DNA from: Eubacteriales bacterium
GTDB taxonomy: Bacteria; Bacillota_A; Clostridia; Christensenellales; Aristaeellaceae
Length of the DNA: 12,949 nucleotides
NCBI GenBank assembly: GCA_028692205.1
Contig: JAQUXV010000040.1
Span: forward strand, 1 to 12,949
Reading direction: 5' to 3'
Part shown: piece by piece, positions 1 to 12,949 of the stretch
How the letters are laid out: each line of letters starts with the position of its first letter
Position numbering within the stretch: position 1 is the stretch's first letter
The notes under the pieces: model-generated
Told to the model about the DNA's origin: nothing
Seen by the model: the letters and a program-made list of their open reading frames with translations, nothing else
Database searches by the model: none
Translations under genes and position numbers: made by a program

Positions 1-393
1 GAATCGCTAACAAGCGTGTTGGCGGATTGCGACCTTGTGATGGCCGATTTGAAGCTGATGAACTGTGATGAGCACAAGCGGTACACCGGCGCGGGCAACG
101 AAACCATCCTGCGAAACCTTAAAGCCGTCGACCGCCCGCTGATCGTGCGTACCCCCGTCATCGGCGGCGTGAACGATACGGACGACGAAATCGCCGCCAT
201 CGCGGAGTTTGCGGGCAAGCTGCCGTTGCTTCTCTATTACGAGTTGCTCCCCTATCACCCGCTGGGCTTAAGCAAGGGGCAGTTTAAGCAGGAGCGCTTT
301 ATAACCCCCAGTTCCGAAAGAATGAGCGAGCTGGCGATGGTCGCCGGCCGATACTGCCGAAACGTTCGCATTGCCGGGAGGATTGCCGTATGA
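1..393 (+). CDS. Glycyl radical enzyme activating protein, C-terminal part (radical SAM, PflA-like)
   Basis: The frame is open from base 1, so the gene starts outside the window. About 130 C-terminal residues are visible. They match the second half of PflA-type activases: a DLKLMNCDEHKRYTGAGN segment (the D-x-K stretch that contacts S-adenosylmethionine, followed by the family's H-x-x-x-G/T-G-x-x-N pattern), a strand reading RTPVIGGVNDTDDEI, and the late ELLPYHPLG motif. The N-terminal CxxxCxxC iron-sulfur motif lies outside the window and cannot be checked. The family cleaves S-adenosylmethionine to make a 5'-deoxyadenosyl radical, which abstracts a hydrogen from the partner enzyme's glycine. 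The stop codon overlaps the start of the GRE gene (ATGA at 390-393), implying translational coupling and a cognate pair. The GTG at 16 is internal, not a real start. The family is sure; the exact partner is inferred from position. Confidence 0.93.
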   Translation, partial: ESLTSVLADCDLVMADLKLMNCDEHKRYTGAGNETILRNLKAVDRPLIVRTPVIGGVNDTDDEIAAIAEFAGKLPLLLYYELLPYHPLGLSKGQFKQERFITPSSERMSELAMVAGRYCRNVRIAGRIAV

Positions 394-2537
394 TGACCTA
401 TCAGGATCGAATCGCGTTGCTGCGTGAAAAGAAAATTCAACATACGCTGGAGAAGAAGCGCCAAAACGGCTACATGGACAGCGACGATTACGGCACCATT
501 CCCCTGCCGGAAGGCTATCGCTTTACGCCGCTCCCCACCGCCGACAAACCGTTTTTCTACGGCGGCATCGGCAACGCGCTCAATTTTCAGGCTATGCTGC
601 AGAATCATCCCGTTTATGTCGATCCGCTGGAAATCCTGTGCGGGCGCTGGGCGGATATGATGCCCTACTACCGCGACGGGAGTTTTGAAAAGCTCTTTCC
701 GTACGACGATTTGAAGCCCGAGCAGCAAAAGTACGGCATCAATTGCGGCATCGGCGCGGACGCCCATTTCGCCTGCGATTACCACATCGGGCTGCGGCTG
801 GGCTTCGGCGGCCTGCTGCAGAAAATCGAAGCCTGCCGCCGCCGCAATCCCGCCAAGGCGGAGTTTTATCTTGCCGAGGAAATCACCGTCCGCGCGATGA
901 TCGCGTTCATCGATCTGCACATTACCGAAATCAAGCGGCTGTTGCGCACGGAGACGAGGCCGGAACTGCTTGTAACCCTTCGGGAAATGCTCAACGTCAA
1001 TCAGGCGGTTCGGCTGTCCCCGCCGGAAACCTTTCACGAGGCCTGCCAGTGGATCAGCTGGTTTTCCGTGGTTTCGCGCATTTACGATCGCGACGGCGCG
1101 GGCTGCAACCTGGATGTGCTGCTTTACCCATACTATCAGAAGGATATTGAGCGCGGTCGGCTGGATGACGACAAAGCCGTTTTCATTCTGGCGAACCTGC
1201 TGCTGATCGACACGCATTACCACCAGCTTTCCGGCGCGGATGAAAACGGCAACGATATGACCAATCCCCTTTCCTATCTGGTGCTGGACGCGGCGCACCG
1301 GCTGAACACTTCCGCCAACCTCACCGTGCGCATGCACGAGCATATCGACCCCGTTTTCCTGCGCAAGGCGGTGGAATACATATTCAACGACCGCAACGGC
1401 TGGCCGCGCTTTTCCTGCGCCGAGGGGCTGATGAAGTACGAGCGCAATCCGGGCGTGCGGCACGCGGACGCGGCGCGGCGCATCGCGGTGGGCTGCAACT
1501 GGATGGCGGTGCCCGGCGTGGAGTATCCGATGAACGACTGTGTAAAAATCAACGTCGCCAAAATCTTCCGCCTCGCGCTGGACGAAATGATGGCGCAGAG
1601 CGCCGAACCGGGGCTGGAGGAGCTGTTTACCCGGCTCCAAAGCCACCTTAAACGCGCGGTGGCGGTAACGGCGGACGGCATTCGGCTGCATCTGGCCAAA
1701 CAGCAGTATGTGATGCCGGAACTGGTGATGAACCTGATGATGGAAGATACGCTGGAAAAGGGCGAGGACATCAGCGTTTGCGCCCGGCTGAAAACCATCG
1801 GGGTAGACGGCGTGGGCCTAGGCACGATTGCCGATTCCTTCGCCGCGCTGGAACAGCGCGTGGCACAGGAGAAACGCTGCGATTTTCAAACCGTGTACCG
1901 GGCGCTGTGCAACGATTTTGAAGGCGTGGAGGGCGAACGCATGCGCCTGATGCTGCAAACCTCACAGCGCTACTGCGGCGGCAACACCCTCGGCGACCGC
2001 TGGGCCAAGCGGGTCAGCGACCTGTATGCGGAAACGGTCGCCGCGCAGCCCATGCCGGAGGGCGTTTCGCTGGTGCCGGGCTGGTTCAGCTGGTCGAGCA
2101 CTATCGCCTTCGGCAAGGAAGTCGGCGCGACGCCGAACGGGCGGCACGCGGGCAAGCCCGTCAGCCACGGCGCCAACCCCAACCCGGGCTTCCGCAAGGA
2201 CGGGGCCGTGACCGCCATGGCCACGGGCGTGGCGGCCATTCAAACCGGCTACGGCAACACCTGCCCCCTCCAGCTGGAGTTCGACCCCGGCCTTTCGGCG
2301 GAAGAAGGCGGCATCGAGCGGGTGGAGCAGATTTTGAAAACGCATATGCGGCAGGGTGGAACGCTGATCAACCTGAACGTTCTGGATAAAGAGAAGCTGA
2401 TGAAAGCTCACAAGGACCCGATGCTCTACCCGGATCTGGTTGTGCGCGTAACGGGCTTTACGGCATATTTCGCCACGCTTTCGCCCGAATTCCGCCAACT
2501 GGTCGTGGACCGCTTTATCGCGGCGGAAGAAGCGTAA
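390..2537 (+). CDS. PFL-family glycyl radical enzyme of unassigned subclass
   Basis: A 715-residue anaerobic radical enzyme with a GRE layout throughout. Visible blocks are HFACDYHIGLRLGFGG (about 125-140), the SPPETFHEACQ block, the LLYPYYQKDIERGRL block, NPLSYLVLDAAHRL, and the C-terminal glycyl-radical motif RVTGFTAYFATL with Gly689 (codon 2454-2456). The thiyl cysteine is Cys369, in AVGCNWMAVPG (codon 1494-1496). Most GRE eliminases read GCVE here; this protein has Trp371 where the catalytic Glu would be, and pyruvate formate-lyase's Cys-Cys pair is absent. So it is neither a standard PFL nor a standard diol/choline/hydroxyproline-type enzyme. There is no N-terminal extension of the kind that targets GREs to microcompartments, and no shell genes nearby. 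The ATG at 390 is chosen because GGGAGG lies 8 bases upstream; an ATG at 393 is also possible. It follows its activase with a 4-base overlap and precedes a sugar ABC importer, so a sugar-derived substrate is inferred. Confidence 0.92.
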   Translation: MMTYQDRIALLREKKIQHTLEKKRQNGYMDSDDYGTIPLPEGYRFTPLPTADKPFFYGGIGNALNFQAMLQNHPVYVDPLEILCGRWADMMPYYRDGSFEKLFPYDDLKPEQQKYGINCGIGADAHFACDYHIGLRLGFGGLLQKIEACRRRNPAKAEFYLAEEITVRAMIAFIDLHITEIKRLLRTETRPELLVTLREMLNVNQAVRLSPPETFHEACQWISWFSVVSRIYDRDGAGCNLDVLLYPYYQKDIERGRLDDDKAVFILANLLLIDTHYHQLSGADENGNDMTNPLSYLVLDAAHRLNTSANLTVRMHEHIDPVFLRKAVEYIFNDRNGWPRFSCAEGLMKYERNPGVRHADAARRIAVGCNWMAVPGVEYPMNDCVKINVAKIFRLALDEMMAQSAEPGLEELFTRLQSHLKRAVAVTADGIRLHLAKQQYVMPELVMNLMMEDTLEKGEDISVCARLKTIGVDGVGLGTIADSFAALEQRVAQEKRCDFQTVYRALCNDFEGVEGERMRLMLQTSQRYCGGNTLGDRWAKRVSDLYAETVAAQPMPEGVSLVPGWFSWSSTIAFGKEVGATPNGRHAGKPVSHGANPNPGFRKDGAVTAMATGVAAIQTGYGNTCPLQLEFDPGLSAEEGGIERVEQILKTHMRQGGTLINLNVLDKEKLMKAHKDPMLYPDLVVRVTGFTAYFATLSPEFRQLVVDRFIAAEEA

Positions 2538-2549
2538 GCCAAACAACGG

Positions 2550-2588
2550 CTCCCGTCCGTACGATGGGCGGGTTATCAGTAACGGGAG
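2550..2588 (+). promoter_or_regulatory. Alternative hairpins masking or freeing the ribosome binding site of the first permease
   Basis: In the 59-base gap after the GRE stop, CTCCCGT (2550-2556) is perfectly complementary to ACGGGAG (2582-2588), which contains most of the GGGAGGG ribosome binding site of the permease gene. The same left arm can instead pair as CCCGTCC (2552-2558) with GGGCGGG (2566-2572), a 7-bp stem with one G-U pair and a 7-base loop. The two helices exclude each other. This is seen directly; a role in translation control, or in setting permease levels below GRE levels, is inference. In GC-rich sequence, 7-bp complementarities also occur by chance. Confidence 0.35.
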
Positions 2589-2596
2589 GGAACCGC

Positions 2597-3523
2597 ATGC
2601 AAAAAACGGGGTTGCGTTACGAGCTCAGGAAAAACCGGTGGCTGTACCTGATGGCCCTGCCGGGAATCCTGTTTATCCTGCTGTTTAATTACGCGCCGCT
2701 GGCGGGGCTGTATTTCGCGTTTGTGGATTACAACGCCATTTCCGGCTTCTTCGGCTTCGGGTCGAAGTTTGTCGGCCTTAACAATTTCGAGTTCTTCTTC
2801 ACCAGTGAGGATTGGCTTCCCGTAACGTTCAACACGCTTTACCTGAACACGCTGTTCATTTCCACGGGGTTGTTTATGCAGGTCGCCATGGCCGTGCTGC
2901 TTAACGAGCTGTCCATCCGGCCCCTCCAGAAGATATCGCAAAGCCTGATGTTTCTGCCGAACTTTCTTTCCTGGACGGTGGTCAGCATCTTCGCGCTGGC
3001 CTTTCTGGGCACCAACGACGGCATCCTCAATAAACTCATTCTGCTGCTGGGCGGCAATAAAGTGCGCTTTTATCAGGATGCGGCCGCATGGCCGGGCATA
3101 CTGGTGTTTCTGCGGCTGTGGAAGGGCGTCGGCTACGGCACGGTCATCTTTCTGGCGGCCATTACCGGCATTGACCAGAACATGTATGAGGCCGCCAAAA
3201 TCGACGGTGCATCCCGCTGGCAGTGCATTTGCCGGCTTACGCTGCCGATGCTGCGCCCCACGGTGGTCATGATGCTCATTCTCTCGGTGGGCAGCATCTT
3301 CAACGGCGATTTCGGCATGATCTACGCGCTGGTGGGCGACAACGCCATGCTGCGCTCCACGACCGACGTTATCGACACCTATGTGTACCGCGCCCTGCGC
3401 ACCAACAACGACATCGGCATGTCGGCCGCGGTCGGGCTGTTCCAGTCGGTGCTCGGCCTTGCCATGGTGCTGGTCACCAACACGGCGGCGCGCAGGCTGG
3501 ACAAAGAAACCGCGTTATTTTAA
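2597..3523 (+). CDS. ABC sugar importer permease, CUT1 type, LplB/UgpA-like
   Basis: A 308-residue integral membrane protein of a binding-protein-dependent importer. After a basic N-terminus come about six hydrophobic segments, near residues 16-40, 80-103, 118-139, 165-190, 222-245 and 275-298. The cytoplasmic EAA loop reads YEAAKIDGASRWQCICRLTLP (about 197-217), where the ATPase docks. The early LPGILFILLFNYAPLAG stretch is typical of the LplB group, which carries oligosaccharides and glycosides. The start was placed at ATG 2597, not at the upstream ATG 2564, because GGGAGGG (2584-2590) sits 6 bases before it and the protein then begins MQKTGLRYELRKNRW, a normal start for the family. It forms a heterodimer with the next gene's product. 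Substrate cannot be read from the permease. Confidence 0.93.
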   Translation: MQKTGLRYELRKNRWLYLMALPGILFILLFNYAPLAGLYFAFVDYNAISGFFGFGSKFVGLNNFEFFFTSEDWLPVTFNTLYLNTLFISTGLFMQVAMAVLLNELSIRPLQKISQSLMFLPNFLSWTVVSIFALAFLGTNDGILNKLILLLGGNKVRFYQDAAAWPGILVFLRLWKGVGYGTVIFLAAITGIDQNMYEAAKIDGASRWQCICRLTLPMLRPTVVMMLILSVGSIFNGDFGMIYALVGDNAMLRSTTDVIDTYVYRALRTNNDIGMSAAVGLFQSVLGLAMVLVTNTAARRLDKETALF

Positions 3524-3544: not shown

Positions 3545-4459
3545 GTGCATAAATCAATCTCTCCCCTTTTACGTAAGAGCAGCGGCGATAAGGTGCTGGT
3601 GGGCATCGCGTATTTCCTGACCGGGCTTTTCGCGCTGATGTGCCTGCTGCCGCTGTGGATGGCGCTGTGCGCGTCTCTCACCAATGAGAACGTGCTGGTG
3701 CGCGAAGGGTACAGCCTGTGGGTGCCGAAGCTGGATTTTACCGCTTACCGCATGGTGTTCACCGGCACAGATTCCGTGCTAAACGCCTATCTGGTCACCA
3801 TTGTCACAACCATCGGCGGCACGCTGCTCACGCTCCTGCTGACGGGCATGCTCGCCTATCCCCTGTCCGTCAAGTCGCTCAAGTATCGCGGCGGCATCAG
3901 CCTGTTCCTGTACTTCACCATGCTGTTCAACGGCGGTCTGGTGGCCAACTACATCCTCATCAGCCGGGTGCTCGGCATGCGTGACAGCCTGTGGGTGCTG
4001 ATCATCCCCGGCGCGCTGAACGCCTTCAACACCTTCCTGATGCGCAATTACTTCCAGACCCTGCCGGAAGCGATGGCCGAATCCGCCAAGATCGATGGGG
4101 CAAGCGATGTGCAGATCTATTTCCAGATCATTTTGCCCTGCGCCAAGCCGATTTTCGCCACCATCGGGCTTTTCGCCGCCATGGGCTTCTGGAACGAGTG
4201 GTACAAGGTGCTCCTTTTCATCGACGACAGCAAGCTCTTTACGCTGCAATACCTGATTATGAAGCTGCAGCGGCAGGTCGATTTTCTCACTTCCTCCATG
4301 GGGGCCAAGGCGCTGGCCGCCATGGGCAACGTTACGCTGCCGACCATCGGCGTGCGCATGGCCACGGCCATGGTGACCATCGGGCCCATTGTGCTGTTAT
4401 ACCCGTTCCTGCAAAAGTACTTTATCAAAGGGATTCTGATCGGCTCCATCAAGGGATAA
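3545..4459 (+). CDS. ABC sugar importer permease, CUT1 type, YtcP/LplC/AraQ-like
   Basis: A 304-residue second permease subunit with about six membrane segments (near 17-42, 80-105, 115-138, 148-165, 200-218 and 275-298). Its EAA loop reads PEAMAESAKIDGASDVQIY (about 174-192), followed by the GFWNEWY motif common in this subfamily. The start is GTG at 3545, giving MHKSISPLLRKSSGDKVL. A GAGGAGG stretch (3526-3532) lies 12 bases upstream and a weaker AGGAG (3538-3542) lies 2 bases upstream, so translation may be less efficient than for the neighbours. It begins 21 bases after the first permease stops. It completes the membrane channel; the binding protein follows. Confidence 0.93.
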   Translation: MHKSISPLLRKSSGDKVLVGIAYFLTGLFALMCLLPLWMALCASLTNENVLVREGYSLWVPKLDFTAYRMVFTGTDSVLNAYLVTIVTTIGGTLLTLLLTGMLAYPLSVKSLKYRGGISLFLYFTMLFNGGLVANYILISRVLGMRDSLWVLIIPGALNAFNTFLMRNYFQTLPEAMAESAKIDGASDVQIYFQIILPCAKPIFATIGLFAAMGFWNEWYKVLLFIDDSKLFTLQYLIMKLQRQVDFLTSSMGAKALAAMGNVTLPTIGVRMATAMVTIGPIVLLYPFLQKYFIKGILIGSIKG

Positions 4460-4503: not shown

Positions 4504-6087
4504 ATGACCAAAAAGATACTGGCAATCCTGCTTGCGCTGTGCCTGTTGTGCGGCACGGCCCTCGCGGAGCACTCCACGCTCACCATCATCGTACCTTCCA
4601 ACTCCACCTATCCTAACGGGTTTGATCAGGTGCTGGCAAAGTTTGAAGAAGAAACAGGCGCCACGCTGGACGCGTCGCTGAACTTCATCTTTACCGGCTT
4701 TGACGACATCGGCCAGAAGGTATCGCTCAAACTCTCCTCCGGCGAAGCGATGGACAGCGTTTTCGCGGCGCAGTGGACGAGCCCGAGCCTGAACGAAATG
4801 GCGCTGAAAGGGCAGCTGGTCTGCCTGGACGATTACTTTAACAGCGACGATTATCCCGGCCTGAAAGCGGCTTTCGCCAAGGATTATCTGGACGCGAACA
4901 GCTTTGTGGGCCCGGACGGCAAATACCACATCTACGGCATTCCCTTCTCGCAAACCTATGCGGGCGGCGGTTACCTGTACTACCGCAAAGACCTGGCGGA
5001 CAAATACGGCGTTACGGTGACCGATGAAAACGGCATTATCGCCTATTGGGACGCGATTCTTCAAAACGAGCCGGGCATGATACCCTTCACGTTCCTCGGC
5101 TCCACGGACCCGCTGACGGGCATTGTGGAATCCTTCTACGCCACCCCGACCACCAAGCACAATACCTATAACGACGGCAAAAACAACAACATCATCATCC
5201 GCGACGACGGCACCGCATACTATTCCCGTTCCGTCGTGCCCGCGATGGATGAAGAGTACAACCAGTGGATGGACGACGCCAACCCCGCGAAGGCCGATCC
5301 GCTGTGGGCGTACCGCATTGCCAAAGAGTGGATGGATAAAGGCTATGTGGATCCCGACTGCATGAACGTAACGGACTTCCAGGGCCAGTTTATCGCCGGC
5401 AAAGCCGCCTCGTTCATCCGCGGCGCGGATACGTTCGACAGCATCAAGAGCCAGCTGGAAAGCGCCATCCCGGATGCGGAACTGGGCTACATTATCGCCA
5501 ACCGCAACATGCGTAACGGCGAAAAGAGCCAGGTCGGCGTTACCTACCAGGCATGGAACTTCGCCTGCATCCCCGTAACCTGCCAAAATCCCGACCTCGT
5601 AATGAAGTTCTACGACTGGCTGTTCTCCAGCCAGGCCAATCACGACCTGTTCGAATACGGCGTTGAGGGCGTGCAGTGGAACGCCGTCGGCGACAACCAG
5701 TACGAGACGATTCCCGACGAGAACGGGAAAACCTACAACTTCGACGCCTTCGTGCTGAGCTGGCTGCCCTCCATGACGCGTTACTCCGTCGCCACCCCCA
5801 CGGACGTGGTGGATTACTTGAAGATGCTGGCCGATCCCACGACCTTCTTCAAAGATCCGGGTTCCGGCTTCTCTTTCGTGGATGAGAACGTTTCCAGCGA
5901 GTCGGCCAAGCTTTCCAGCATCGACGACCTCGCCATGGTTGTAAAAGACGGCTTTGAAAGCGATATCGAAGCCGCTATTGAAAAGGTAGACCAGAAGCGC
6001 GAAAACGCCGGTCTGGAAACCTTCGCGGCGGAATACACCGCTCAGTTCGACTCGTTCCTGGCGGAACACCCCTATAACGAACAGTAA
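4504..6087 (+). CDS. Secreted ABC solute-binding protein, family 1, LplA-like with DUF3502-type C-terminus
   Basis: A 527-residue sugar-binding component of the importer. An excellent ribosome binding site, AAGGAGG at 4489-4495, lies 8 bases before the ATG. Residues 1-21 are a Sec signal peptide: MTKK, a hydrophobic core ILAILLALCLLCG, and an ALA/E cleavage site after residue 21. No proper lipobox is present: Cys13 is preceded by LAL and Cys16 by CLL. The mature part opens with STLTIIVPSNSTYPNGFDQVLAKFEEETG, the usual first lobe of family 1 binding proteins. The C-terminal region, roughly 420-525, resembles DUF3502 (GFSFVDENVSSESAKL, then an amphipathic helix ending in EYTAQFDSFLAEHP). That domain is typical of LplA-type proteins of Bacillota that bind oligosaccharides or glycosides. 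Many surface Trp, Tyr and Asp residues fit sugar binding, but no specific ligand can be named. Confidence 0.92.
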   Translation: MTKKILAILLALCLLCGTALAEHSTLTIIVPSNSTYPNGFDQVLAKFEEETGATLDASLNFIFTGFDDIGQKVSLKLSSGEAMDSVFAAQWTSPSLNEMALKGQLVCLDDYFNSDDYPGLKAAFAKDYLDANSFVGPDGKYHIYGIPFSQTYAGGGYLYYRKDLADKYGVTVTDENGIIAYWDAILQNEPGMIPFTFLGSTDPLTGIVESFYATPTTKHNTYNDGKNNNIIIRDDGTAYYSRSVVPAMDEEYNQWMDDANPAKADPLWAYRIAKEWMDKGYVDPDCMNVTDFQGQFIAGKAASFIRGADTFDSIKSQLESAIPDAELGYIIANRNMRNGEKSQVGVTYQAWNFACIPVTCQNPDLVMKFYDWLFSSQANHDLFEYGVEGVQWNAVGDNQYETIPDENGKTYNFDAFVLSWLPSMTRYSVATPTDVVDYLKMLADPTTFFKDPGSGFSFVDENVSSESAKLSSIDDLAMVVKDGFESDIEAAIEKVDQKRENAGLETFAAEYTAQFDSFLAEHPYNEQ

Positions 6088-6095
6088 TTGCGCAA

Positions 6096-6125
6096 TCGGC
6101 GGGGCCGCGCTCGCGGCCCCGCCGA
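6096..6125 (+). other. Strong intercistronic hairpin after the binding-protein gene
   Basis: A perfect 13-bp stem, TCGGCGGGGCCGC (6096-6108) with GCGGCCCCGCCGA (6113-6125), and a 4-base loop start 8 bases after the binding-protein stop. The sequence after it, CAGTAAGGATG, holds the ribosome binding site of the next gene and no T-run, so full termination is not expected. Likely roles are blocking 3' exonucleases to raise the binding-protein message, or reducing readthrough into the DUF1861 gene. The structure is seen; the roles are inferred. Confidence 0.6.
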
Positions 6126-6144
6126 CAGTAAGGATGTGGATTGT

Positions 6145-7113
6145 TTGGACACGAAAAGTATGCGGGATCGTTTTGAGCAGAGCCACGGGCCGATGGAGGC
6201 CCATCTGCTGCAGTTTGAAGGCGTGGAGGGTTATGACGTCTATAACTGTTCCCTGCCTTTCGAATACGGCGGGCGCACCTGCCTGTTCGGGCGCGTGGAG
6301 CGCCGGGCCGTATGGGCGCATTCAACCGCGAGGCTGTTTGAGCAGATCGGCACGGACCGGTATCGGCTTGTAAAAGACGCCATGGTCTACCCGCTGGAAG
6401 ACCCCTTTATCAGCCGCATTCACGGCGAGCTGGTGCTGGGCGGCACACATGTGCGCATCTCACAGGGGGCCATCGACACCTATCACTGTTATTTCTACCG
6501 TGGCGACGACCCCGCGGACCTTGCCTTCTTCACATCCGGTCCAAAGGAAATGAAGGATATCCGGCTTGTGGAGCTGGCGGACGGCCGGATCGGCGTGTTC
6601 TCCCGCCCGCGCGGCAAAGAAATCGCCCAGAAGTACGGCAGTGAAGCTATTGTGGGCTTTACGATCATCAACTCTCTGGACGAGCTGAACGCCGCTGTGG
6701 TGCAAGGCGCGCCGAGAGTGGAAAACCTGTTCGGCCCCGGCGAATGGGGCGGCTGCAACCAGTGCTATCAGCTGAAAGACGGGCTGATCGGCGTGGTCGG
6801 CCACAAGAGCTATATGGACCGACAAAACGACATCGACATGAAAGTGTACACAAACATCGCCTTCGTGATGGACCCCAACCACCTGTGCGCGCTGGAGGAG
6901 AAGATGATCGGAACCGCGAAACGCTACCCGCCCTTCGCCCCCAAGGTGCCCGATCTGGCGGACTGCGCGTTCACCAGCGGCATCGTGATGCGGGCGGACG
7001 GCAAGGCGGACCTGTATTCGGGCGTTGGCGACACCTGCGAAGGCCGGCTGGTGATCGACGATCCGTTTGCCGGTCACGGTGGCTTTGTGGAACCCTCTTA
7101 TACAAGCCGGTAA
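6145..7113 (+). CDS. DUF1861 family protein, probable five-bladed beta-propeller
   Basis: About 322 residues, recognised as DUF1861 from its chain of conserved blocks: GVEGYDVYNCSLPFEYGG, then LFGRVERR, PFISRIHGELVLGG, GPKEMKDIRLVELADGRIG followed by VFSRPRG, GEWGGCNQCYQLKDGLIG followed by VVGHKSYMD, PDLADCAFTSGIVMRADG and LYSGVGDTCEG. The family has no described function that I can state. Its repeated blades and DIRLVELADGR-type turns resemble the propeller glycosidases and phosphorylases (GH43/GH130 type), so a role in glycoside handling is an inference supported by the importer next door. No signal peptide is visible, so it is probably cytoplasmic. The start is uncertain: AAGGA (6130-6134) sits 10 bases before TTG 6145, the position used here, while ATG 6160 would give 317 residues with a 25-base gap. 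The open frame reaches back to TTG 6088 through the hairpin, which is unlikely to be translated. Confidence 0.88.
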   Translation: MDTKSMRDRFEQSHGPMEAHLLQFEGVEGYDVYNCSLPFEYGGRTCLFGRVERRAVWAHSTARLFEQIGTDRYRLVKDAMVYPLEDPFISRIHGELVLGGTHVRISQGAIDTYHCYFYRGDDPADLAFFTSGPKEMKDIRLVELADGRIGVFSRPRGKEIAQKYGSEAIVGFTIINSLDELNAAVVQGAPRVENLFGPGEWGGCNQCYQLKDGLIGVVGHKSYMDRQNDIDMKVYTNIAFVMDPNHLCALEEKMIGTAKRYPPFAPKVPDLADCAFTSGIVMRADGKADLYSGVGDTCEGRLVIDDPFAGHGGFVEPSYTSR

Positions 7114-7126
7114 GGAGATGCGGGCT

Positions 7127-7750
7127 TTGATTCGCAACCTTGTATTCGATATGGGCGGGGTTTTGATGGACTTCCATCCGCTCGCCGCCTGCCGTAAGGT
7201 AGCGCCGGATGAAGACGCGGCGCAGAAGCTAAACGAAGCCTTGTTCCGACACCCCGAATGGGGCAGGCTGGACGACGATTCCATCACGCCGGAAGCGCTG
7301 GCCCGCCTTGCCATGGACGCGCTGGACGACGACGCGCTGAAGCCGCTGGTGCAAAAGCTGTTCGATGGCATGCCGTGGAACATCCTCTCGCCCATCAAGG
7401 GGATGGAGGCGGTCGTCGATCGGGCAATGTCCGACGGGTATCATGTGTATCTGCTTTCCAACGCGGGCCGCAAAATCAGCGAACACCGGGAGATCATTCC
7501 GTTGATCCATCGCTTTGACGGCGTTATATTTTCCGTGGAGGAACGGACCAAAAAACCCGGCCCGGCAATCTATACCCAGCTTACGTCCTTCTATGGCCTG
7601 AAGCCGGAAGAGTGCCTGTTTATCGACGACGATCCGGGAAACGTGGAAGCCGCGCGCGCCCTTGGGTGGCACGGCTACCGCTTCGATGGGAATGTCGCGG
7701 CGCTGTCGGCCGCGCTGGAACAGCTGCCCAAGCCGGAAACCCCTGATTAA
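7127..7750 (+). CDS. HAD-superfamily phosphatase, subfamily IA, YihX-like
   Basis: A 207-residue cytoplasmic hydrolase. Motif I is FDMGGVLMDF near the N-terminus, with the nucleophile Asp but Gly where the second Asp of D-x-D normally sits, as in YihX-type enzymes (FDLGNV). A helical cap follows (about 20-85). Motif II is LLSNAGRK, motif III is the Lys of ERTKKPGPAIY, and motif IV is FIDDDPGNVEAARALGW. YihX of E. coli removes phosphate from alpha-glucose 1-phosphate, so a sugar-phosphate substrate is plausible but not proven. The start is placed at TTG 7127: AAGGAG (7112-7117) lies 9 bases before it and the protein then begins MIRNLVFDMGG, the standard opening of this family. ATG 7118 directly abuts the ribosome binding site and is less likely. 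It is the last gene of the plus-strand run, 13 bases after the DUF1861 stop. Confidence 0.9.
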   Translation: MIRNLVFDMGGVLMDFHPLAACRKVAPDEDAAQKLNEALFRHPEWGRLDDDSITPEALARLAMDALDDDALKPLVQKLFDGMPWNILSPIKGMEAVVDRAMSDGYHVYLLSNAGRKISEHREIIPLIHRFDGVIFSVEERTKKPGPAIYTQLTSFYGLKPEECLFIDDDPGNVEAARALGWHGYRFDGNVAALSAALEQLPKPETPD

Positions 7751-7854: not shown

Positions 7855-9204
7855 TCATTCCCGCGCGGGAATTTTTCGCAGCAACTCCCCAAGCGTCCAC
7901 TCCAGTCCGCTGTCCGCGTAGTCCACCGTCATCTGTTTCATTGCCTCTATCTCGTCCCATATCCAGCGCGCCAGCGTACAGGACGGCGTTTGAAGGTACT
8001 GCGTCGTCAAATGCAAGACCCGGTGCATTTTTCGGTGCTTTTGCAGCCACGGTTCCAGCTCGCGCAACAGCGCCTCGGGCAGCCGCCCGCCTTCTATCCG
8101 GTTTTCCAGAACATCCAGCTTGGCCACATATTTAGCCAGTATTTCTGCCGCTTCTTCCGTGTTCCGAATCATCAGGGCTTTTCGCATCTCAAACAGAATG
8201 TTGTGCAGGATCTGGGAATTGGTTTCCTGCAGGCAGGAATGCCGCATGTTGTCGGCAAATAGGCGGAACGAAACCGCCTCTTCCTTCAGCTCGCTCTGCA
8301 GCGACGCTCGCCAGGACGTTTCCGGGTCGTAGCGAACCGGATCGCGCAGGTAATCCGCAACCGTGTTCAGCACGATTTTTGTGCATTCAAAGCTCTCCAT
8401 GCCGTTGCACAGGTAGCCGTTGCAAAAATTGTATAAAGTTGCGTCCCTGCCCCGCAGCGGCCCCAGATGCATTTCCCTGTACATGCCGTTGTCGTTGACC
8501 GGGTAATTATCCCAATACAGCGGGCGGTGGCCCGTCGCCTTGATGAACCGCTTGGCCTGCTGGGTTTCCAGCGTTTCGGAGCAGATTTGCGGCCCCGTCC
8601 ACAGAATTTTTACCTCTGTGGAAAGGTTTTTCCCCAGCAGCGAAATATAAGGCTCCTCCCCTGTGCCGCAATACTGCCAGGGGCACACGCACAGCCGCAC
8701 AGCCTCCGGCAGCATGGTTTGCAAAAGGGTTGCGAAACGGTTGATGAAGCTGATGTGCGCGTTAATCAGTGTGGCATATTGCCCCACATCCTGCGGATAT
8801 TGCAGCTGCGCGGGAATATCGTCCAGCAGCAGGCCGAAGTGCCGCACCCCCAGCACATACATCTGCTGCACTTTCGCCATCAGGCGGTCCATATCGCCGG
8901 GGTCGGAATAGCACAGCGTCAGCCCCGGCGCGATGCAATACCAAAAATCGATTTGCTCCTCCCGGGCAAGCTCCGTCAGCTTGCTCAGCTTCTCGCAATC
9001 CTCCGGCTGGTAAAGCTCCGCCCAGCGTTCCCGGTGATAAGCATCGAACTTGGCCGCGTAAAAGTAGCTGTTCATGCCCAGTAGCTGCATGCGCGCCAAC
9101 AGCTCGCACCGCTGCTGAAAGGTCCACGGTTTGCCGTAAAACCCCTCGATCACCCCGCGAATCTGGAACCCGCACACATCTTCCGTTTTTTGCTTTTGTC
9201 CCAT
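7855..9204 (-). CDS. GH84 beta-N-acetylglucosaminidase (O-GlcNAcase-like), cytoplasmic
   Basis: A 449-residue member of glycoside hydrolase family 84. The barrel opens with RGVIEGFYGKPWT (16-28). The catalytic Asp pair is in FGLLLDDIPAQLQ: Asp128 would orient the substrate acetamido group and Asp129 would be the acid/base in substrate-assisted retaining catalysis. Other active-site blocks are LWTGPQICS (201-209), YWDNYPVND (230-238) and HLGPLRGR (246-253). After about residue 290 comes a helical region. The family removes terminal beta-GlcNAc from glycans or from Ser/Thr. There is no signal peptide and no N-terminal or carbohydrate-binding domain, unlike the large secreted GH84 enzymes of clostridia, so it probably acts on imported oligosaccharides. 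The minus-strand start ATG (9202-9204) has GGAGGG about 6 bases upstream. It is convergent with the phosphatase gene and is transcribed from its own leader. Confidence 0.93.
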   Translation of the reverse strand: MGQKQKTEDVCGFQIRGVIEGFYGKPWTFQQRCELLARMQLLGMNSYFYAAKFDAYHRERWAELYQPEDCEKLSKLTELAREEQIDFWYCIAPGLTLCYSDPGDMDRLMAKVQQMYVLGVRHFGLLLDDIPAQLQYPQDVGQYATLINAHISFINRFATLLQTMLPEAVRLCVCPWQYCGTGEEPYISLLGKNLSTEVKILWTGPQICSETLETQQAKRFIKATGHRPLYWDNYPVNDNGMYREMHLGPLRGRDATLYNFCNGYLCNGMESFECTKIVLNTVADYLRDPVRYDPETSWRASLQSELKEEAVSFRLFADNMRHSCLQETNSQILHNILFEMRKALMIRNTEEAAEILAKYVAKLDVLENRIEGGRLPEALLRELEPWLQKHRKMHRVLHLTTQYLQTPSCTLARWIWDEIEAMKQMTVDYADSGLEWTLGELLRKIPARE

Positions 9205-9507: not shown

Positions 9508-11001
<1,494 letters not shown>

Positions 11002-11225: not shown

Positions 11226-12949
11226 TCAGCCGTTCAGCCGGATCTCGAAGCTTCCGGCTTCGCAGGGCAGCGCCCATTTACCCTCCGCCATCCGGGTCAA
11301 CGGGACGCCGTCGCACACAGGCTGGGTGGGCCAGCACAGCGTAACGTAGCCCGGCTTCTGGTTGCCCGGCTTGCGTGTAAAGCGCAGTTTCCAGCCTCCG
11401 TCCGTTTGGGCCATATGCAGCGTTACTTTGCCGAATGCCGTAGGCGTATCCTCCAACAGCAGATCGTTGCCGGCTGTCGGCAGCCATTCTTTCGGCAGTC
11501 CGGGCAGCAGCGACATTCCGCCGTCCCACTCCAGTAGCAGCAGCGTGCGCACCAGCCGGATAAACTCCACCGATGCCCAGTTGTGCGGCATATCCCCGCA
11601 GATTTCGGCGCAGGCCGTCTCCTTCACAGGCTGTTCCTCGCGCCATACCCCTGCGGGCGAAGCATGGTTGGCAAACGCGTACAGGTAATCGACAGCTTTT
11701 TCGGGGCGGCCCGTCAGCAGCATCTGCTCGCCAAAGCGGCCCGCGGCATAGATGTACATGCTCTGGTCGGCGCGCCAGCCCGAACCTTCCGGCAGGCCTT
11801 CGCGTTCATCCACGCTGTCGATCAGGTCGGCGGTCATTTTCATGATGGGGTCGTCCAGCCCGAACGCGCCATGGAAAGCAACCCGGCAAATGGTCTGCAC
11901 ACCCGTCTGGGGCTTGTAAACCGGGTTGTCGGCCATGGATAGGGGCAGGTACGGCAAGCCCTCCGGCGTTTTACGCAGATCCCGGCGGATGCAGGCCTGC
12001 ATGGTTTCGTTCAGTTCGTCGGCAAATTGCTGGAAACGCTCCCAACCCGCCAGTTGCAGGCGTTTGCCCGCACGGGCGGCGTCCTTTACGCCGACCAGCA
12101 CATTGAGCGGCGTTGTATATTCCGGTTCCGGGCCGTAGATGCCGCCGTCCCCAAACGCGGGCTTGAACAGGCCGCGCGCGGGATAGTCCTCTCCCAGCGT
12201 ATAGCTCTCGTCCCGCATGGCAATCAGGTGATCCAGCCCGCGCAGCATCAGGGGCCACAGTTCCTTCAGGCGCGCGTCGTCGTTGCGCAGCTCACATTGC
12301 CGCACGATGGTGGACAGCGCCACCGCCGTCTCCTTATGGTGATCCGGCAGAATGCGGATGCTGCCGTCGGGCTTCACCCGTTTCAGCACCGCCAGCAGGC
12401 CCTGCCACGCTTCATCGTCCCGGCCCATCATGTAACCGCACTCCGCGAAGTAATACCCGTCCACCACCCACAGGCCGCGGTAGATAGTCGGCCCGACATG
12501 GAATTCCACAATGTCGTCCACCACTTCGCGGGCCTGCAGAATGTTGCGCCCGCAAATAGCCAACATGCGCCGCACCTGCCCGTCCGGCACACGGAACGCG
12601 TGGCGGAAAGGCTTGATGCCCTGCCAGTACGCCTCGCAGTTAGCCAGACACTGTTGGGCGAAGTTAAGCGTAAAGTTTTCCAGCTCCACCCGGCCGCAGT
12701 ACACCAACGCAAAAGCGCCCTGCCAGCTCTCCCCCGCGTGCAGAAAGGTGTTTTCCATATCCAGCGGCTCGCCGTCCGGCCCAACGATCGGCGAATAGAG
12801 CGCGATCGGCGCGGGAGCGCTTGCGTTGCCCGTGGGCAGCGCATACGCCGAGGACGCATAGCGGAGCGTTTCCGGCGGGTCGAAGGGTTCGCCCATCGTT
12901 TGCAGGTAAACGGTGTCCCGCGCGTGGCCGAAGTTCTCTTTTGCCTTTA
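11226..12949 (-). CDS. (Alpha/alpha)6-barrel glycosidase-like protein, 5' end cut by window edge
   Basis: At least 574 residues; the reading frame stays open past the internal ATG at 12894-12896 to the window edge with protein-like sequence (GHARDTVYLQT), so the true start is outside. The middle is a six-hairpin helical barrel of the type in clan GH-L/GH-M and GH78/GH63-like enzymes: YRGLWVVDGYYFAECGYMMG, VKPDGSIRILPDHHKETAVA, FGDGGIYGPEPEYTTPLN and PEGSGWRADQSMYIYAAGRF. The C-terminus is a small beta-sandwich (LLPGLPKEWLPTAGNDLLLE, FGKVTLHMAQTDGGWKLRF) usual behind such barrels. The Asp of VVDGYY and the Glu residues of YGPEPEY are candidate catalytic acids, which I cannot confirm. I cannot name the family or substrate; alpha-rhamnosidase-like or debranching-enzyme-like activities are possibilities. 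A terminator follows it. Confidence 0.8.
   Translation of the reverse strand, partial: KAKENFGHARDTVYLQTMGEPFDPPETLRYASSAYALPTGNASAPAPIALYSPIVGPDGEPLDMENTFLHAGESWQGAFALVYCGRVELENFTLNFAQQCLANCEAYWQGIKPFRHAFRVPDGQVRRMLAICGRNILQAREVVDDIVEFHVGPTIYRGLWVVDGYYFAECGYMMGRDDEAWQGLLAVLKRVKPDGSIRILPDHHKETAVALSTIVRQCELRNDDARLKELWPLMLRGLDHLIAMRDESYTLGEDYPARGLFKPAFGDGGIYGPEPEYTTPLNVLVGVKDAARAGKRLQLAGWERFQQFADELNETMQACIRRDLRKTPEGLPYLPLSMADNPVYKPQTGVQTICRVAFHGAFGLDDPIMKMTADLIDSVDEREGLPEGSGWRADQSMYIYAAGRFGEQMLLTGRPEKAVDYLYAFANHASPAGVWREEQPVKETACAEICGDMPHNWASVEFIRLVRTLLLLEWDGGMSLLPGLPKEWLPTAGNDLLLEDTPTAFGKVTLHMAQTDGGWKLRFTRKPGNQKPGYVTLCWPTQPVCDGVPLTRMAEGKWALPCEAGSFEIRLNG

Follow-up and report, generated by a model that had tools for sequence, protein, structure and literature searches.

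The window, as we call the whole 12,949-nucleotide stretch of DNA that was analysed, encodes a glycyl radical enzyme (GRE) in which a tryptophan, Trp371, occupies the position of the glutamate in the C-x-E motif of the Cys loop. The same substitution defines a clade of related enzymes, here denoted GCxW, and it is near certain that this clade is a separate, uncharacterised GRE subclass.

The window enzyme matched the Pfam families PFL-like (6.2e-81) and Gly_radical (PF01228, 1e-15), and its AlphaFold2 model had a pLDDT of 93. The active-site cysteine, within GCNW, is located on the Cys loop of a 10-stranded barrel, and the C-terminal glycyl radical domain carries the RVxG[FY] signature in the form RVTGF. 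A partner radical SAM activase is encoded upstream, its reading frame ending at 393 and thus overlapping the ATG of the GRE at 390. Judged by its sequence, the window enzyme is an intact glycyl radical enzyme with a partner activase. In contrast to GRE eliminases of the C-x-E type, it has no glutamate two residues past the cysteine. The first-pass annotation had proposed this exchange of Glu for Trp, as well as Cys369 and Gly689 as the thiyl and glycyl radical residues, and all three assignments were borne out (Table 1). The range given for the motif, 1476 to 1530, covers the right region but clips the peptide quoted for it, which reaches about position 1538.

Table 1. Features of the window, with residue numbering of the window GRE. 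Row counts refer to the 36 GCxW and 34 other GRE rows of the tree.
Feature	Position	Strand	Remark
GRE activase (radical SAM), C-terminal 130 aa, cut by window start	1..393	+	NCBIfam PFLE_PFLC 3.2e-21, other GRE activase models
GCxW glycyl radical enzyme (GRE)	390..2537	+	715 aa, translation uninterrupted
His126	765..767	+	aligns with catalytic HypD His160; 36/36 clade rows, 22/34 others
Cys369, thiyl-radical cysteine	1494..1496	+	aligns with HypD Cys434
Trp371, at Glu position of C-x-E	1500..1502	+	Glu in 27/34 other GREs
Glu378	1521..1523	+	fixed in GCxW clade; Glu in HypD too
Asp383	1536..1538	+	36/36 clade rows, 4/34 others; common to PflD and glycerol-dehydratase-like row L083
Gly689, glycyl-radical residue in RVTGFTAYF	2454..2456	+	aligns with HypD Gly765
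ABC sugar-type permease 1	2564..3523	+	PF00528 3.2e-15
ABC sugar-type permease 2	3545..4459	+	PF00528 6.2e-09
Extracellular solute-binding protein	4504..6087	+	PF01547, PF12010
GT108-type (DUF1861) mannoside phosphorylase/transferase homologue	6088..7113	+	PF08950 1.9e-109
HAD-IA phosphatase	7067..7750	+	TIGR01509 above cut-off; 8pno 2.6e-05
NAGidase-domain protein	7855..9204	-	PF07555
Glycerol kinase	9508..11001	-	above its cut-off

The window enzyme scored far below the cut-offs of the curated subclass models: 190.7 bits with HypD (cut-off 1100), 143 with CutC (1050), 193 and 165 with the sulfopropanediol dehydratase models (1000), 90 with HPAD (1150), 110 with indoleacetate decarboxylase (1100) and 68 with PFL (994). 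With NF007437, which we take to be the PflD model, it reached 207.6 bits (cut-off 1109), and the tree did not place it with PflD or YbiW. Membership of a characterised subclass was therefore rejected for those subclasses that have a curated model or a row in the tree.

Among the closest known enzymes, PflD and YbiW (1,5-anhydromannitol- and 1,5-anhydroglucitol-6-phosphate lyases) share 24% identity with the window enzyme in the fold alignment, but have GCVE and GCIE, insertions of 48 and 20 residues, and a position on another branch. Archaeoglobus fulgidus PFL2 (2f3o, 26% identity) has GCVE, and the B12-independent glycerol dehydratase (1r8w, 22% identity) has GCVEPQ, also read GCVEPQKPG. HypD, trans-4-hydroxy-L-proline dehydratase, resembles the window enzyme at His160, Cys434 and Gly765 and in the glutamate at the Glu378 column. 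It differs in that HypD Glu436 is replaced by Trp371, Thr645 by Trp568 and Tyr450 by Lys386; HypD Asp278 falls on Arg234, in a gapped region where the mapping is unsure.

We then asked how widely the motif is kept. A protein search gave 1947 matches, a count that perhaps includes GREs of other classes and is no measure of family size, and the query was aligned with the best 120 of them (57-90% identical). Within these 121 proteins, Trp371 and Glu378 lie in columns that are at least 97% identical, and RVTGFT[AS]YF is present in all 121; at position 370, the motifs listed have mostly Asn, sometimes His and in one case Ser. In genomes, GC[NHQ]W, in the context GCxW....GxE, was kept in all 44 distinct related loci that scored at least 363 bits. 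This count includes L039, whose GCNWTALPGIE is distinct from another GC earlier in its sequence, and is made without the match row G089:C501, which became no locus. The next lower locus, L013 (210 bits), is a HypD with GCVE; the range from about 210 to 363 bits was covered in five genomes, the other searches stopping at 1e-100 or stricter. Close homologues with GCVE, which the first-pass annotation had named as the observation that would speak for a local variant, were found neither among the motifs listed for the closest proteins nor in the 44 loci. Since the motif is fixed across the clade, a local variant or a sequencing slip was rejected.

The phylogeny was assessed with a quick IQ-TREE run on 70 GRE rows (36 GCxW and 34 others) with a midpoint root, leaving out partial ORFs and 7 rows that were near-copies or broken. 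A motif regular expression chose the GCxW rows for the tree, for the residue and gap counts and for the neighbour counts; the presence of Trp371 and Glu378 in 36 of 36 tree rows is thus by construction, whereas the 121-protein and 44-locus sets were not selected by motif. All 36 GCxW rows were on one side of a branch with an SH-aLRT of 99, and 35 of them were united with an SH-aLRT of 100 on a stem that measures 1.31 changes per column. The remaining row, L062, is the deepest; its branch is long and its placement less sure. No row with another motif stood inside the clade, and the rows of CutC, HypD, HPAD, PFL, PflD and YbiW were all outside it. The suggestion of a separate subclass is in this way supported, with GCxW as its defining motif and no grouping with any characterised subclass that could be placed; the tree contained no reference row for X-succinate synthases, isethionate lyase and others, and for the first two the comparison was one of fold similarity only. 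The literature searched contained no description of the GCxW subclass, which may correspond to an unnamed cluster in the 2017 GRE network paper or in a GRE review.

The first-pass annotation was right that the window enzyme has neither GCVE nor the Cys-Cys pair of PFL, but GREs without the glutamate are not unique to this clade: PFL has Ser at the position, and other odd motifs occur. GREs with GCWE, GCYE, ACWE, GCWG and GCSQ (L087, L094, L098, L093, L104, L106, L109, L101, L091, L084 and L103) fall outside the CutC, HypD, HPAD, PFL, PflD and YbiW groups. L090, L097 and the minus-strand GRE of L058 combine a TCVEITP Cys loop with a RIGGYSD or RVGGYSD glycyl loop and form a starred tree group of their own. 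L116 and L117 are sister rows of CutC in the tree, yet have GCVV instead of GCVE, and L120 is above the curated HPAD cut-off, yet has a GCLA Cys loop, so that its chemistry may differ.

Members of the clade were found in Clostridia, Chloroflexi and Bacteroidota; proteins of Hungatella (P0044) and Anaerocolumna (P0053) are among the close homologues, and Flammeovirga kamogawensis has a copy (WP_144076909.1). A 37-member alignment used as query detected relatives in 29 of 391 genomes from one class, and in 4 of 16, 3 of 3, 3 of 398 and 2 of 201 genomes in other, partly overlapping draws; a single-protein query against genome contigs gave 5 loci. The viral contigs searched contained no relative. 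Two Bacteroidota plasmids carry members that are 44% and 43% identical to the query, both with GCNW. One 4.5 Mb genome (G101) shows an unusual GRE expansion, with at least 17 distinct GRE places (L043, L056, L129-L132, L152 and others), of which seven are GCxW, one of them as GCQW.

The consequences for the active site can be judged from characterised enzymes. The C-x-E Glu is reported to be conserved in GRE eliminases (PMC7077986, PMC8473560), HypD Glu436 holds the substrate hydroxyl and the HypD variants E436Q, H160Q and D278N have no detectable activity (PMC7077986), and the E470Q variant of isethionate lyase is dead (PMC8473560). From the inactivity of the two Glu variants it follows that a natural loss of this residue is chemically meaningful. 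Taken by itself, the essential role of Glu436 in HypD might also indicate a catalytically reduced or regulatory GRE, a reading that is hardly credible given that Cys and Gly are kept over three phyla and that an activase is encoded within 3 genes of 36 of the 46 GCxW GREs.

The first-pass annotation had pointed to Glu378 as the relocated base. An ordinary 1,2-eliminase with its base shifted from the C-x-E Glu to Glu378 would agree with the fixation of Glu378 in the clade and with its location on the Cys loop. The column is, however, also Glu in 6 of the 34 non-GCxW GREs, five of which, HypD among them, keep the C-x-E Glu as well; Glu378 is thus not specifically a replacement. The HypD substrate contacts given in the available part of PMC7077986 do not include the residue at this column, nor is a role named for it there. 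We regard such an eliminase as unlikely and Glu378 as a weak candidate for the base, and the invariant His126 and Asp383 as better candidates. His126, Asp383 and Phe566 are identical in all 36 GCxW rows, and Lys386, Trp568, Asp473 and Arg364 in 32 to 35 of them. The rows also share a gap: after position 273 there are 0-1 residues in 36 of 36 GCxW rows as compared to 3-52 in all 34 others (20-21 in PFL, PflD, YbiW, CutC, HPAD and HypD). The missing stretch includes the position of HypD Ser334 and GD Phe333, which in other GREs is occupied by a substrate-side residue.

Within the window, the genes are arranged in an operon-like order: activase, GRE, two ABC permeases, solute-binding protein, DUF1861 protein and HAD phosphatase. 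The opposite-strand genes at 7855-9204 and 9508-11001 are probably outside the operon. Over 517 aa, the solute-binding protein shares 41.6% identity with one from L065, a distant member of the clade, where it is encoded two genes away from the GCxW GRE. The DUF1861 protein, whose true start is probably further in than 6088, matched the GT108 enzyme MPT-4 of Leishmania (6q50) with 1e-96 over residues 23-334. According to PMC8950772, one fold is common to GT108 and GH130, among which are beta-mannoside phosphorylases yielding mannose-1-phosphate; it is this neighbour, not the GRE, that resembles them, and such an activity is predicted for it. The HAD protein is weakly similar to YihX, a glucose-1-phosphate phosphatase (8pno). 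There is no Gfo/Idh/MocA gene in the window. At 11229-12947 on the minus strand, a reading frame without a Pfam match encodes a product about 24% identical over 317 residues to proteins of 717 and 658 aa, located two genes from the GCxW GREs of L060 and L076.

This arrangement also bears on C-C bond chemistry like that of PFL or the X-succinate synthases. X-succinate synthases are not known to carry the C-x-E Glu, and PFL has Ser in its place. The window enzyme has no Cys-Cys pair, PFL is elsewhere in the tree, the neighbours are sugar enzymes, and a small-subunit gene would not fit next to the GRE, since the activase overlaps it and the permease begins 27 bases on; such chemistry is very improbable here.

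Several other GCxW loci have carbohydrate-related neighbours. GH130 is found in L134 (+1), L071 (-3) and L045 (+6, partial), a Flammeovirga locus contains GH92, GH130 and GH47, a Persicobacter locus contains GH47, and GH38 adjoins the GCxW GRE in L067. A phosphomannose-isomerase (PMI)-like gene is present in L048, L057, L058, L066 and L072. The genes around L043, a near relative, are mostly of housekeeping type. The enrichment of GH130/GT108 was not significant (4 of 46 GCxW GREs versus 0 of 33 control GREs, p 0.14), and GH38 and TIM-barrel genes are found near control GREs too; a mannose-specific substrate for the whole clade is thus not proven. On two Bacteroidota plasmids a conserved protein of 136-139 aa directly follows the GCxW GRE (L167 22146-22556 and L168 22145-22564); it is cupin-like by eye and has no Pfam match over the cut-off.

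A Gfo/Idh/MocA gene lies within 3 genes of 17 of the 46 GCxW GREs versus 2 of the 33 control GREs (p 0.0014), in a comparison that draws its controls from a small number of genomes and uses loci that are not independent. Ten of the 17 cases belong to one subclade, without which the counts are 7 of 36 versus 2 of 33 (p 0.15). The detector was built from members at GCxW loci, so that controls may be under-counted; two more control cases give p 0.019, and p 0.52 if the subclade is left out too. These neighbours form several groups with less than 40% identity between groups. Four were compared with solved structures: the nearest named activity was DgpA for one, DgpA2 for another and sugar 3-ketoreductase for a third, the latter two ranked behind an unnamed oxidoreductase; the fourth, from L063, had no solved-structure match below 1e-15. 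L073, L075 and L078 carry the Gfo/Idh/MocA gene on the opposite strand. L056, which would add one case, since an activase and a Gfo/Idh/MocA gene adjoin its GCxW GRE, and L130 are missing from the 46 because spurious long ORFs antisense to the GRE (L130 8712-10883, L056 671-3136) hid it.

A Pfam tally of neighbours covered 146 GCxW-side proteins and 120 of 122 control proteins, and was made without the window, ORFs below 150 aa and any gene with an existing GRE, activase or Gfo/Idh/MocA label. Among the first 25 families listed (of 90, 113 and 126), both sides had AraC-type regulators, permeases and TIM-barrel genes. The carbohydrate setting is therefore common to many uncharacterised GREs and not unique to GCxW.

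Taken as a whole, the neighbours suggest sugars rather than the small molecules known so far for GREs. A sugar is the probable substrate of the clade, the reaction has about an even chance of being an elimination, and any named product would be doubtful. Our preferred reading, to which we give roughly equal weight for and against, is a GRE subclass of anaerobic carbohydrate breakdown that would act as a C-O eliminase on sugars with assistance from His126 and Asp383. The activase would generate the radical on Gly689, from which it would move to Cys369, and the thiyl radical would abstract hydrogen from a carbon atom of a hexose-like substrate. Trp371 and Phe566, with Trp568 in most members, may form an aromatic wall on which the sugar ring stacks, in a pocket that the absence of the stretch presumably enlarges. 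An oxygen leaving group on a neighbouring carbon would depart with the aid of His126 and Asp383 as acid/base in place of the C-x-E Glu, with Asp473 or Glu378 as possible assisting residues. In the window, an imported mannoside may be split by the GT108 homologue to mannose-1-phosphate, which the HAD enzyme would dephosphorylate; in other subclades, a Gfo/Idh/MocA sugar dehydrogenase may act before or after the GRE.

If no leaving group were lost, no C-x-E base would be needed. A radical sugar epimerase or isomerase, in which Cys369 removes a hydrogen that is returned, possibly from the other face, would fit the missing base as well as the TIM-barrel, PMI-like and dehydrogenase neighbours in some subclades. 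His126 and Asp383, which are found in eliminase-type sites, are nevertheless kept, and we know of no epimerising GRE, making this reading improbable. A quite speculative further reading is that the GCxW enzymes are radical sugar deoxygenases resembling ribonucleotide reductase (RNR) and acting on free or glycoside-derived hexoses. Hydrogen would be abstracted at C3 and the oxygen at C2 lost with no C-x-E base involved, giving a 3-keto-2-deoxy sugar to be reduced by a Gfo/Idh/MocA 3-ketoreductase or to enter a 3-keto-sugar pathway. If true, this would amount to anaerobic sugar catabolism by direct radical deoxygenation of a mannose-type hexose.

A long-stemmed clade spanning three phyla, which has lost the C-x-E Glu while Cys, Gly and activase are kept and Trp is fixed, implies either elimination without this base or another reaction class. 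With seven GCxW genes in one genome, and relatives in 29 of 391 genomes of one class, an unassigned part of anaerobic sugar metabolism may be involved.
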